Part shown: positions 23,821 to 62,038 of the stretch, piece after piece
Numbering within the stretch: position 1 is the stretch's first letter
Layout of the letters: each line of letters starts with the position of its first letter
Assembly (NCBI GenBank): GCA_030601845.1
Contig: JAUWAY010000002.1
Location: forward strand, 1-64,000
From: Phycisphaerae bacterium
GTDB taxonomy: Bacteria; Planctomycetota; Phycisphaerae; Sedimentisphaerales; Anaerobacaceae
Reading direction: 5' to 3'
DNA: 64,000 nt
Position numbers and translations under genes: made by a program
Notes under the pieces: model-generated
Database searches by the model: none
Seen by the model: the letters and a program-made list of their open reading frames with translations, nothing else
What the model was told of the DNA's origin: nothing

Positions 23821-23935
23821 CGCGAAATCCGTGATTAAAGAATCCGTGGCCAGTTTCGAATTTTGAAATTTGTTCATTCGAATTTGTTTCGGATTTCGTG
23901 CTTCGTATTTCGGATTTTCTTCTACCCACTATCCC
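23821..23935. repeat. Degenerate short-period repeats ('aatccgtg' and 'ttcggatttcg' types)
   Basis: The stretch contains 'gaaatccgtg...aatccgtgg' (23824-23849) and then 'tttcgaattttgaaattt', 'gtttcggatttcg' and 'cgtatttcgga' (23853-23921). The second part closely resembles the arms that flank the four-helix-bundle gene at 52410. No protein is encoded. Confidence 0.6.
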
Positions 23936-23939
23936 TCCT

Positions 23940-24180
23940 CCCTCGTCCCTCGTCAATCTGCCTCTTACAACCTGATATCCTAATTCCTGGTATCCTGCGC
24001 CCTGATTTCCTGATATCCAGATATCCCAATTTCTGTCTTCTGTCCTCTGACATCGGGCATCGAGCATCGAGTATCGGGCATCGAGTATCGAGTCTTTTTC
24101 GTCCTCTGTCTTCTGACATCGGGCATCGAGTATCGGGCATCGAGTATCGAGTCTTTTTCGTCTTCTGTCCTCTTATACCA
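23940..24180. repeat. Composite tandem repeat region
   Basis: Three successive degenerate types are visible: 'tccctcg' units (about 23938-23955), 'tgatatcc/taattcc/tggtatcc' units (23972-24029), and a larger unit of about 59 bp present twice plus a partial copy (24030-24180), made of 'ttctgtcctctgacatcggg', 'catcgagtatcgggcatcg' and 'agtctttttcg'. The internal period is about 7 bp. There are no unique spacers, so it is not a CRISPR array. The open frames across it are artefacts of the repeat. Confidence 0.75.
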
Positions 24181-41603: not shown

Positions 41604-43379
41604 TTAATCAGTGCGATGGCACAGTTTTCGGGTGGCTTTTATGCAATCGGGCAATTTTTCCTGTGTGTAATGTTTTTGCATTGCTGCTGCAACGAGTCCT
41701 ACGAACATTGGTTGAGGTTTCAGTGGGCGGGAAGTCAGGCAGGGATGTGCCTGAGTGCCCACAAAGAATGGATGGGACGGGATTTCCAGGATTTGCATAA
41801 TCGGCTGATTGGGTGCTTTGCCGGAAAACACGAGGCCGGCCTTTTCCAGCGGCTCAATATAACGGGGGTCAACCTCATAACGATGTCTGAATCGCATTCG
41901 TACAGAGGCTGTTTTGCCAAAGAGCTTCCAGACCAGTGTCTGGGGTTTTAGTTTTATGTCCTGTCCGCCGAGGCGCATATTTCCGCCGAGGCCTTCTATT
42001 TTTTTCTGCTCCGGCAATATATCGATTACCGGCTCGGGACAGTCCGGCTCAATCTCGGTGCTGTTGGCTTTTTTAAGCCCGCAGACGTTGCGAGCAAATT
42101 CTATAACAGCCATTTGAAAGCCAAAACATAGTCCCAGATAGGGCAAATTGTTCTGGCGGGCATATTTTATGCAGGCAATTTTGCCCTCAGCACCGCGGGT
42201 ACCGAATCCGCCGGGGACAATGATGCCGTCAACGTCAGCCAAGTTGTCGGCTGCGTTTTCATCGGTAATGCCGGTCGTTTCAATCCATTTTATTTTTGTC
42301 TCGCAGCTAAGGGCGATACCGGCGTGTTCGAGGGCATTGATTATCGAGGCATAACTGTCACGGACGGATGTGTATTTGCCGATGATGCCGATGGATATTT
42401 GGCGATTGGCGGCACCGATTTTGTCGGTGAAATCGCACCATTTAGCCCAGGCCTTGCGTTCGTGTCGCAGATTGATTCTGTCCTCGATTTTGAGCAGTCT
42501 GGCGACCTCAAAATCCAGGCCACGGTCTCTGAGCATAGCCGGTATCATATAAATACTGGCTGAATCAGGGAGACTTATGACCCTTTCGAGAGGGACATTA
42601 CTATAGACGCTGATTTTTTGCCGGACCTTCTCAGTAACGGGATTGGTTGCCCTGCAGGCGATGATGTCCGGCTGAATGCCACACTGCATAAGCTGCTTGA
42701 TTCCTAATTGTGCGGCCTTTGATTTCTGCTCGCCCAGGATTGCAGGCTCTAATATATATGTCAGGGCCACGAAGCAGCAGCTATTGGGTCCTTCTTCGTA
42801 TGCCAGCTCTCGCATCGCCTCGATAAAATAGGCATTTTCCAAATCGCCGACCGTGCCGCCAATCTCGACAAAAACCATATCGGCGTCGGTATCGGCTGCC
42901 AACTGCCGAAGTTTCAGTTTGACCTCGCCGGTAACGTGCGGAATCATCTGCACGTCCCTGCCGAGATAGTCGCCGTGGCGCTCCTTGTGCAGGATTGAGC
43001 TGAATATCTGGCCGCTCGTGGCAAAGTTTGCCCTGCTTAAATCCTGGTCGAGCATCCTCTCGTATGTGCCCAAATCCATATCGCATTCCATACCGTCATC
43101 GAGCACAAACACCTCACCGTGGCGAAAAGGATTCAGCGTGCCGGAATCTATGTTCAAATATCCTTCGAGCTTAATTGGTGTAACTTTCAGACCCTTATCC
43201 TGCATCAGCAAAGCCAGGCAGGATGAGAATATGCCCTTGCCGAGGCCGCTCATCACAGTGCCGGCAACGAAACAATAGCGGGTTTTTCCTTTTTTATAGT
43301 CGGCCGGCACCGGCGAGAAAAATTCGCTCTCGGTCGATATATCACTAACAGAAGCCAACAAATCTTTATCTTTCAACAT
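41604..43379 (-). CDS. pyrG: Divergent CTP synthase
   Basis: A 591-residue CTP synthase (UTP + ATP + Gln to CTP). The synthetase domain has the P-loop 'GTVMSGLGKG', 'HGEVFVLDDGMECDMDLGTYERML' and 'KERHGDYLGRDVQMIPH'; the glutamine amidotransferase domain has the nucleophile C418 ('LGLCFGFQ'). Two departures stand out: the usual 'DPYINVDPGTMSP' reads 'EGYLNIDSGTLNP', and the catalytic 'HPE' reads H545-P-C547, replacing the triad Glu. The start at 43379 lies 4 nt behind the kdsB stop. The tail is about 40 residues longer than in E. coli. Confidence 0.88.
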   Translation of the reverse strand: MLKDKDLLASVSDISTESEFFSPVPADYKKGKTRYCFVAGTVMSGLGKGIFSSCLALLMQDKGLKVTPIKLEGYLNIDSGTLNPFRHGEVFVLDDGMECDMDLGTYERMLDQDLSRANFATSGQIFSSILHKERHGDYLGRDVQMIPHVTGEVKLKLRQLAADTDADMVFVEIGGTVGDLENAYFIEAMRELAYEEGPNSCCFVALTYILEPAILGEQKSKAAQLGIKQLMQCGIQPDIIACRATNPVTEKVRQKISVYSNVPLERVISLPDSASIYMIPAMLRDRGLDFEVARLLKIEDRINLRHERKAWAKWCDFTDKIGAANRQISIGIIGKYTSVRDSYASIINALEHAGIALSCETKIKWIETTGITDENAADNLADVDGIIVPGGFGTRGAEGKIACIKYARQNNLPYLGLCFGFQMAVIEFARNVCGLKKANSTEIEPDCPEPVIDILPEQKKIEGLGGNMRLGGQDIKLKPQTLVWKLFGKTASVRMRFRHRYEVDPRYIEPLEKAGLVFSGKAPNQPIMQILEIPSHPFFVGTQAHPCLTSRPLKPQPMFVGLVAAAMQKHYTQEKLPDCIKATRKLCHRTD

Positions 43380-43387
43380 AAATTTAA

Positions 43388-43424
43388 CCTCGTATCTCGT
43401 ATTTCGCTTCACGCTTCACTTTAT
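43388..43424. repeat. Heptad repeat tract at the kdsB 3' end
   Basis: ctcgtat, ctcgtat, ttcgctt, cacgctt, cac form a degenerate heptad run that encodes the last residues of KdsB (minus strand, '...KREAKYEIRG') and ends within a few bases of its stop codon. Confidence 0.7.
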
Positions 43425-43707
43425 ACCGAACGACGAACTCGGCGTATTGCTGTGGTGTATCTATGCCGTCGCAGGTGTGCTCGACTTTGCCGACCAAAAT
43501 TGAATAGCCATTTTCAATCGCTCGCAATTGCTCAAGTTTTTCGATTTTCTCCAGCGGGGTTTGCGGCAAAGAAGTAATCTTTAGCAGAAACTGTTTGCGA
43601 TAAGCGTAAATTCCAATGTGCCGCAGATATTGTTGTGTTTTTCCTATGCCGGATTTTTCCCTATCATAAGGAATGGGGGCTCGCGAAAAATAAATCGCCC
43701 TGCCAAT

Positions 43708-43742
43708 CTCGTGGCTCGTGGCTCGTGACTCGTGACTCGTAT
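43708..43742. repeat. In-frame heptad tract inside kdsB
   Basis: Five consecutive units, ctcgtgg, ctcgtgg, ctcgtga, ctcgtga, ctcgtat, lie inside the coding region and add about 12 residues to a loop that in ordinary KdsB is short ('DPNVVKVV...GRALYFSR'). Confidence 0.85.
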
Positions 43743-43927
43743 CACCAACACAGGGAGATATTATAACCTTTACGATATTAGGGTCGGCAATCTGCTCAGG
43801 ACTCTGGAACTCGGCAGCTAAGGTGGCCATTGGATAGTCTGGGTTTTTTATTAAAAGCTCGGCCAGATAATCGATATTTTCCGGGTCGATCTCCGGCTCA
43901 TCGGCCTGGAGGTTCACCACGATATCC

Positions 43928-43955
43928 GAATTTTGAATTTTGAATTTTGAATTTT
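43928..43955. repeat. Four GAATTTT units inside kdsB (frame-disrupting)
   Basis: Exactly four 7-bp units at 43928-43934, 43935-43941, 43942-43948 and 43949-43955. Because 7 is not a multiple of 3, each gain or loss of a unit changes the reading frame. It lies between the 'SGTDRIAEV' and 'VVNLQADEP' motifs. Confidence 0.9.
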
Positions 43956-44210
43956 CAGTATGACTTCAGCGATGCGGTCGGTGCCGCTTTTGTGCTCGAT
44001 TGAGGTTAGAATACATTCGGCTCCGAACGATTTGGCAGCAGCGGCAATTCTTTCATCGTCGGCTGCTATTATTACCTTGTCGGGTGTTTTAGCTAAACAG
44101 GCCTGCTCGTAGGTGTGCTGGACGAGGAATTTGCCGGTATCTTTGGCGAGAACCTTACCGGCGAATCTGGTAGAACCGTAACGAGCAGGAATACAAGCTA
44201 CAATTTTCAC

Positions 44211-59878: not shown

Positions 59879-62038
59879 ATGGTAGAGAAGAATATATTTA
59901 ACAAATTAGGTTTGTCACAGGATGAACTTGACCAGCAGGTCAATGAGCTGTTCACTGATAAAGACAGCCAATTTTTGGAAGAGGTTTTGCATGCAAAGGT
60001 CGATTCACGTCTGCCGGGGACTATTCTCAAAGGTACAATCGTATCGCAAATAGGCAATGATGTTATTGTCGAAGTGGGCCTGAAAAGCGAAGGCGTTGTC
60101 GATGCAAGTGAATTTGAAAGTCCTGATGAGATAACGCCTGGAAAAGAGATAGAAGTTCTTCTTGAAGATACTGATTCTGAAGGCGGGCTTATCCTCCTGA
60201 ACAAGCGCAAGGCCGACCGCATCAGGGGCTGGGAAACAATTATTAATACAAAGAAGGAAGGTGATGTTGTCACCGGCAAGGTTATAAGACGCATCAAGGG
60301 TGGCTTACTGATTGATATTGGCGTGCCTGTGTTTTTGCCGGCCTCGCAGGTCGATATTAGAAGACCCGGGGATATCAGTAGATTCATCGGCAAGGAAATT
60401 GAATGCAGGATTCTCAAGATTGATGTTGAAGGACGCAACATAGTCGTCTCGAGACGCAAACTTATCGAAGAAGAACGTCGCAGCAGTAAGGAAAAAATTA
60501 TGACCGAGATCGAGGTCGGCCAATTGCGAAAAGGTGTTGTGAAAAATATCGCCGACTTCGGGGTCTTCGTGGATTTGGGCGGCGTGGATGGTCTGCTGCA
60601 TATCTCTGATTTAAGCTGGGGCAGAATCTCACATCCGTCAGAAGTCATTAAACTCGATCAGGAGATTGAGTGTGTTGTTATTGCCCTCGATAAAGAAAAG
60701 GAGAAGATTTCCTTGGGGTTAAAGCAGAAAACCGCCAGTCCCTGGGAAGATGTTGAAGAGCGTTATCTGATCGGAGCGAAGGTAAAGGGCACCGTTGTAA
60801 ACGTGATGAATTATGGTGTGTTTGTTCGGCTTGAAGAGGGCGTTGAAGGGCTGGTGCATATTAGCGAGATGAGCTGGACCAGGCGTCTGGCACACCCCGG
60901 GGAGATACTCAATCTCGGCGATGAAATCGAGGTGGTCGTCTTGAATGTTAATAAAGACAAACAGGAAATCTCGCTGGGCTTAAAGCAAACCGAAATCAAT
61001 CCCTGGACGATTGCCTCTCAGAAGTATCCGGTGGGAACCATCGTTACAACAACGGTGCGAAGTGTGACAAATTTTGGTGTATTTGTTGAGATAGAGCCGG
61101 GCATTGATGGCATGGTACACATTTCAGATTTGAGTTGGACAAAGAAATATAATCATCCCGGCGAAATGTTGCAAAGGGGCCAGGAAGTAAAATGCGTTGT
61201 TCTCGATGTTGATGAGGAGAAACAACGCGTATCGTTAGGCATAAAGCAAATGACCGAAGACCCCTGGATTCGTGCCATCCCGGAAAAATATATCCCAGGA
61301 CACATTATCAAAGGCACTATCACAAAACTGACCAATTTTGGTGCATTTGTTGAACTTGAATCGGATTTGGAGGGGCTGCTGCACATTTCCGAACTCGCCG
61401 ACCATAAGATTGATAGGCCTCAGGATATTGTTAAATTGGGCGATGAGGTTGAGGTTAAGATTTTAAGGGTCGACCCTGAATCTCGAAAGATAGGGTTGAG
61501 TTTACGAAGGGCTCAGTGGGCCGCCGAAGAACAGGCGGCCAAAACCGTCCAACAGCAGACCCCAGAAGCCCTCCAGCTTGTTCCCTCTGATAGTGATAGG
61601 GAGGAGGTTGCAAAGCCGCAAGAGCAGGCCGACGAAGCTAAAGAGACTGAGGCTGAGCAGCCGCAACAGACAGAAGAGCCCAAAAAGCCGAAAGAGACCG
61701 AAGAGTCTGAAAAGCCGAAAGAGCAGGCCGACGAAGCTAAAGAGACTGAAGAGTCTGCAAAGCCGAAAGAGCAGGCCGACGAAGCTAAAGAGACTGAAGA
61801 GTCTGCAAAGCCGAAAGAGCAGGCCGACGTAGCTAAAGAGACTGAGGCTGAGCAGACGCAACAGACAGAGGAACCCGAAAAGCCGAAAGAGACCGAAGAG
61901 TCTGAAAAGCCGAAAGAGCCAGAGCAGTCTGAGGAAGCTAAAGACGAGCAAACTCAAAAGACAGAGCAAGCAGACAGCCAGGCCGGTGGCAATAATAGTT
62001 CACAGCACAAGGCCGAGCCTGATACCGATAATCAATAG
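59879..62038 (+). CDS. rpsA: 30S ribosomal protein S1 with a long charged C-terminal tail
   Basis: A 719-residue protein with six S1 RNA-binding domains at about 40-545 (for example 'GVVKNIADFGVFVDLGGVDGLLHISDLSW', repeated with variations). It helps mRNA bind the ribosome. The ATG at 59879 is set because the longer frame adds an unrelated leader. From about residue 555 the C-terminus is a Lys/Glu/Pro/Thr/Gln-rich low-complexity tail of about 165 residues built from repeated 'KPKEQADEAKETEES' units (DNA 61618-61960). E. coli S1 ends at 557. Confidence 0.93.
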   Translation: MVEKNIFNKLGLSQDELDQQVNELFTDKDSQFLEEVLHAKVDSRLPGTILKGTIVSQIGNDVIVEVGLKSEGVVDASEFESPDEITPGKEIEVLLEDTDSEGGLILLNKRKADRIRGWETIINTKKEGDVVTGKVIRRIKGGLLIDIGVPVFLPASQVDIRRPGDISRFIGKEIECRILKIDVEGRNIVVSRRKLIEEERRSSKEKIMTEIEVGQLRKGVVKNIADFGVFVDLGGVDGLLHISDLSWGRISHPSEVIKLDQEIECVVIALDKEKEKISLGLKQKTASPWEDVEERYLIGAKVKGTVVNVMNYGVFVRLEEGVEGLVHISEMSWTRRLAHPGEILNLGDEIEVVVLNVNKDKQEISLGLKQTEINPWTIASQKYPVGTIVTTTVRSVTNFGVFVEIEPGIDGMVHISDLSWTKKYNHPGEMLQRGQEVKCVVLDVDEEKQRVSLGIKQMTEDPWIRAIPEKYIPGHIIKGTITKLTNFGAFVELESDLEGLLHISELADHKIDRPQDIVKLGDEVEVKILRVDPESRKIGLSLRRAQWAAEEQAAKTVQQQTPEALQLVPSDSDREEVAKPQEQADEAKETEAEQPQQTEEPKKPKETEESEKPKEQADEAKETEESAKPKEQADEAKETEESAKPKEQADVAKETEAEQTQQTEEPEKPKETEESEKPKEPEQSEEAKDEQTQKTEQADSQAGGNNSSQHKAEPDTDNQ
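61618..61960 (+). repeat. Tandem coding repeats in the S1 tail
   Basis: A unit of about 60 bp ('gaagagtctgcaaagccgaa', 'agagcaggccgacgaagcta', 'aagagact') occurs two to three times nearly exactly (61700-61840), flanked by diverged units. The reading frame is kept (unit a multiple of 3). Confidence 0.85.

Follow-up and report, generated by a model that had tools for sequence, protein, structure and literature searches.

A heptanucleotide tract sets an assembled planctomycete kdsB out of frame, in a family whose KdsB loops repeatedly carry heptads

Introduction

Heptanucleotide repeats have been described as occurring in excess across many bacterial genomes, with polymerase slippage put forward as an idea to account for them (PMC4692102, PMC4679880), the units including GGGNATC in Xanthomonas and Nostoc (PMC4692102) and TAACTGA in Beggiatoaceae (PMC4679880). 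The heptads considered here resemble those cases in forming short 7-bp arrays across the genome, mostly outside genes, but they differ in that many different units, not one dominant unit, occur in a genome and in that heptads appear repeatedly inside the loops of one conserved enzyme. Heptamer-derived satellites also occur in Bacteria (PMC6749651, in passages that make no mention of kdsB).

In the parts of the literature cited here, the phase-variable heptads of hmw in Haemophilus influenzae lie in promoters, number about 11-38 units, and vary between isolates (PMC2651432, PMC8262952). The tract that we describe is likewise a 7-bp repeat whose count could set the expression of an envelope-related function, but it lies in coding sequence, has four units, and is represented by a single assembled count.

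The enzyme encoded at this locus, KdsB (models NF003952 and TIGR00466), is described as using K19, D95, and D219 in its mechanism (PMC3149649). The copy examined here, situated in a window of 64,000 nt (the whole stretch of DNA that was analyzed), is like other KdsB proteins in matching both models with each of its halves; it differs in being split by a frame break, in a family many of whose members carry heptad-coded loop insertions. Our literature search found no paper on heptanucleotide repeats in Planctomycetes, on phase-variable kdsB, or on tandem repeats in Sedimentisphaerales.

Results

In the window, kdsB occupies positions 43384-44210 of the minus strand and is split into two reading frames at four copies of GAATTTT (43928-43955, 100% match; AAAATTC x4 on the minus strand), which we refer to as the loop-1 tract. 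Reading starts at a GTG (44210), and the tract follows 255 nt further on. The frame of the N-terminal part (43914-44210), which contains the CTP-site lysine K19, passes through the tract and meets a TGA after 98 codons; the C-terminal part (43384-43926), which contains both metal-binding aspartates in ADEP and GIDTP motifs, is open in a different frame via a GTG at 43920 down to 43384. These frames, along with the model matches given below, confirm the original prediction of two kdsB halves joined out of frame at the tract. By frame arithmetic, 2, 5, 8, or 11 units keep the frame and four break it, such that the number of units sets kdsB in or out of frame; the earlier proposal that two or five units would restore it is thereby borne out. 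The further suggestion that two units would give the loop length of ordinary KdsB comes close, the resulting 39-nt junction being one codon longer than the 36 nt of most relatives. By chance, 64 kb of random bases would contain a perfect 28-nt run of period 7 about 1e-8 times. Beyond the tract, the gene showed no additional frame break, and with the frame broken at the tract, no single open reading frame (ORF) would be predicted to encode an active KdsB.

A second heptad array, which the original prediction had missed, lies in frame within the same gene at loop 3 (43708-43740; CTCGTGG/CTCGTGA units on the plus strand), and two CGCTTCA units are present in the codons of the C-terminal tail (43405-43419). 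Downstream of kdsB and on the same strand is an intact pyrG-like gene (41604-43379), which presumably encodes CTP synthase and which served as a control gene. Elsewhere in the window, positions 23887-24173 contain several different adjoining 7-bp arrays with a 59-bp higher-order unit, and positions 61609-61932 form a long imperfect repeat region with periods of 48 and 99 bp.

Against KdsB model NF003952 (length 250), the N-terminal half matches positions 1-91 (9.8e-31) and the C-terminal half matches positions 94-241 (2.6e-45), each half alone falling below the whole-protein cut-off of the models, as expected for a split gene. K19 and the two metal-binding aspartates are all kept, with the frame break lying between the lysine and both aspartates; neither fragment would therefore be expected to work alone. 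The gene bears no marks of a long-standing pseudogene, whether conserved-site decay, raised pN/pS, or further stops. In the 89 columns where at least 95% of the other sequences agree, the window gene has no change, which is the lowest possible score and is common to 19 of the other 60 sequences, and the mean pN/pS against 17 relatives (0.198) falls within the range of those relatives' own means (0.177-0.244). A fixed count of four units with decayed flanks had been named as an outcome that would speak against phase variation; half of this is now answered, in that the flanks of the tract show no decay. A search for a second kdsB, also proposed earlier as a check, found none in the 75%-complete draft genome; the only other protein matching PF02348, of 407 amino acids, was read from its sequence as GlmU.

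We compared the junction across 110 distinct kdsB sequences, window included, leaving aside five loci that hold the C-terminal half only (L039, L072, L073, L091, and L101). The relatives, retrieved by kdsB, carry the titles Sedimentisphaerales, Phycisphaerae, or Planctomycetota, and the 60 relatives' genomes searched include none of the window's genus. All 109 relatives keep the frame across the junction. Of the 110 genes, that of the window alone is out of frame, and it alone has a stop before residue 240; related genomes thus do not present a mixture of ON and OFF tract lengths. Among the relatives, six have a loop-1 tract, and all six are in frame: L048, with five AAAATTC units at the exact site of the window tract; L024 and L131, with CCCCTAT-type heptads; and L052, L065, and L069, with other heptads. 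An AlphaFold2 model of the five-unit L048 protein (pLDDT 87.4, pTM 0.87), whose best PDB matches are KdsB structures, places the tract-coded residues between a helix (76-87) and a strand (99-102). Over the KdsB alignment as a whole (at least 55% identity), 27 inserts of at least 3 residues fall in six internal low-occupancy segments, and the best repeat lag is 7 in 25 of the 27, two of them weakly (L132, 0.35; L042, 0.37).

We applied one rule to all genes (28-nt windows with 80% identity at lag 7). By this rule, 18 of 65 kdsB genes contain a tract (21 tracts in 49.3 kb), compared with 0 of 76 pyrG genes (106.7 kb), 0 of 31 kdsA genes (25.6 kb), and 2 of 30 aspS genes (54.1 kb; one of the two being this genome's own aspS), giving Fisher p values of 2e-7, 5e-4, and 0.03, respectively, all of which are too small on account of shared descent among the sequences. 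The 65 kdsB genes were gathered partly through peptide patterns of the window KdsB, and because one of these (HEIGRAIY) overlaps the loop-3 array, the count was repeated on genomes chosen by taxonomy alone. In these genomes, a kdsB tract occurs in 7 of 27 members of the same family and in 0 of 23 members of other families of the order (p = 0.011), and pooled aspS and kdsA genes of the same family show a tract in 1 of 36 (p = 0.017 against the 7 of 27 for kdsB), with shared descent inflating both significances. A scan of 46 family loci returned 19 tracts within ORFs, one of which is a run of N, and 16 of the 18 real tracts are in kdsB. Relative to the three control genes, kdsB in these relatives is a repeat hotspot. 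The tracts of the relatives fall in three loops, and on a tree of 61 kdsB sequences the inserts require at least 6 changes in loop 1, at least 3 in loop 2, and at least 10 in loop 3, with loop labels assigned by eye and with heptads making up only part of the loop-3 cases of L035 and L042.

Heptads also abound across the genome itself, a draft metagenome-type assembly of 1.86 Mb in 31 contigs. A 464-kb sample contains 41 perfect runs of at least 2.5 units at period 7, compared with 0 in a locally shuffled copy and 0-3 at each of periods 8-12, an excess over both chance and other periods that marks the repeats as a heptanucleotide class of simple sequence repeat. In 857 kb (46% of the genome), we found 55 perfect heptad tracts of at least 18 nt, 10 of which were called intragenic by a rule combining ORFs and codon usage, the other 45 being left unclassed. 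Nine of the 10 are in frame and one, the loop-1 tract of kdsB, is broken; if one tract in three were in frame by chance, this outcome would have p = 0.0004. A tract had to pass somewhat more stringent cut-offs to be called "broken" than to be called "in frame". Outside kdsB, in-frame tracts lie in eight genes, whose products match aspartate-tRNA ligase (AspS), AddA, RnfD, TsaB, DnaE, ribosomal protein S16 (where the tract is a Lys/Ala-rich tail and is perhaps a different kind of repeat), an RNase H plus PurN ORF, and a methyltransferase-like protein. Heptads are therefore a genome-wide feature and are not restricted to surface genes, as the in-frame tracts of AspS, DnaE, TsaB, and AddA make plain. 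Neither this spread of heptads nor their presence in loop 1 of relatives figured in the original prediction.

Two of these loci have features of their own. In the RNase H plus PurN ORF (L148:14160-15518, minus strand, contig C15 of this genome, G000), an RNase HI domain and a PurN domain are encoded together and a run of heptad units marks the boundary between them, much as though two genes had become fused through a repeat tract. Both this genome (L136:5329-5353, G000) and one other family member (L210, G009) have an in-frame aspS heptad array, and their units are similar. In three further relatives, aspS is in two pieces with a gap relative to the model (G027:C62:71363-72926, G046:C1:65576-67154, and G024:C249:31785-33357), which could be either frame breaks or deletions.

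Discussion

We think it probable that kdsB is a normally constrained housekeeping gene whose assembled allele stands one heptad out of frame after a recent one-unit slip, in a lineage that repeatedly gains heptads in its KdsB loops. Under such a scheme, 7-bp tandem repeats would arise across the genomes of a Sedimentisphaerales-like planctomycete family, and in three KdsB surface loops far more often than in control genes; tandem slippage would create and resize the tracts, the KdsB loops would tolerate the inserts, and selection would usually purge out-of-frame lengths and keep those in frame. With the loop-1 tract at four units, translation would end at residue 98, and no KdsB activity would be expected. 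Most likely, replication slippage would recently have added or removed one unit, and the four-unit allele would be present in part or most of the population sampled. Four units are a short substrate for slippage, which counts against a one-unit slip.

The first alternative, which we judge unlikely, is that the break is an artefact of assembly or consensus and that the true unit count is in frame. The source is a fragmented, incomplete draft, the gene shows no decay, and the allele is the only broken one both among the 110 kdsB sequences and among the 10 intragenic tracts, all of which would fit an artefact. However, a five-unit tract of the same AAAATTC/GAATTTT repeat was assembled in frame in contig C22, and since the 28-nt tract is shorter than ordinary reads, a miscount of units is not expected.

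The original prediction pointed to possible phase variation, in which cells would turn KdsB on and off, at rates of use to them, through changes in heptad number, the assembly having caught the OFF state. Part of what it rested on has stood: a clean frame-setting 7-bp repeat in a gene without decay, joined now by the five-unit, in-frame relative L048, the enrichment of heptads in kdsB over three control genes, and the failure to find a second kdsB in the draft. Other results make the idea quite improbable, in that the tract has only four units (compared with the roughly 11-38 of hmw), all 109 relatives are in frame, as would not be the case for a freely toggling gene, and heptads occur throughout the genome, in frame, in genes such as aspS, dnaE, tsaB, and addA. 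Moreover, CMP-Kdo supply, which an OFF state would halt, is essential in many Gram-negative bacteria. We give similarly little credence to a broader version, in which kdsB would be a contingency or tuning locus throughout this planctomycete family, length changes in the three loops being useful (through slow in-frame tuning with occasional OFF cells) and the window representing an OFF cell type.

A very recent loss of both KdsB and Kdo from the lineage appears very unlikely. In its favor, neither a second kdsB nor waaA was found in the 75%-complete draft, and waaA is present in 32 of 37 relatives' genomes, including all 20 of those with completeness of 90% or more and contamination of 5% or less. 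But the genome has open kdsA and lpxC genes, kdsB shows no decay, and the two genes that adjoin waaA in L183 were not found in the draft either (by a search run without a positive control); because these neighbors are missing too, we read the absence of waaA as a gap in the assembly and not as evidence that the whole Kdo branch has been lost. Finally, both halves are conserved, and the GTG at 43920 overlaps the upstream TGA as GTGA, as might suit a ribosome that slips on AAAA runs (-1 being needed) or restarts at this GTG to yield two assembling fragments, but we find this barely plausible, given no Shine-Dalgarno-like string in the approximately 25 nt before the GTG, no classical slippery heptamer (by eye), and an overlap that looks incidental because the GTG encodes a valine common in in-frame relatives.

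The kdsB sequences form a natural series showing the repeated gain of 7-bp repeats in the same loops of a conserved enzyme, apparently under selection for frame, and they allow the birth and purging of heptads in coding DNA to be measured. If four-unit cells are alive and common, they would show a Gram-negative-type envelope coping without CMP-Kdo. There is also a warning for annotation, in that a gene recorded as broken at a heptad tract may be a single slip from intact.

With respect to the origin of the loop-1 tract, L048 falls within a clade with L044 and L120 (bootstrap 100), neither of which has a loop-1 tract, and the window branches outside this clade. Because L048 nests among tract-free relatives, two gains of AAAATTC are simpler than one gain followed by several losses, and the tract was probably gained separately by the window and L048, common descent being the less simple story on this tree. 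Given that separate gains are probable, the five units of L048 need not represent the ancestral state of the window. The sequence beside the tract is locally altered in both genes, and either local A-rich seeding or exchange between lineages may explain why the two genes have an identical unit at one site. A second such coincidence of unit and site occurs in loop 2, where an AAAACTC heptad is found in L062 and, separately, in the L044/L120/L048 clade (L045/L120).
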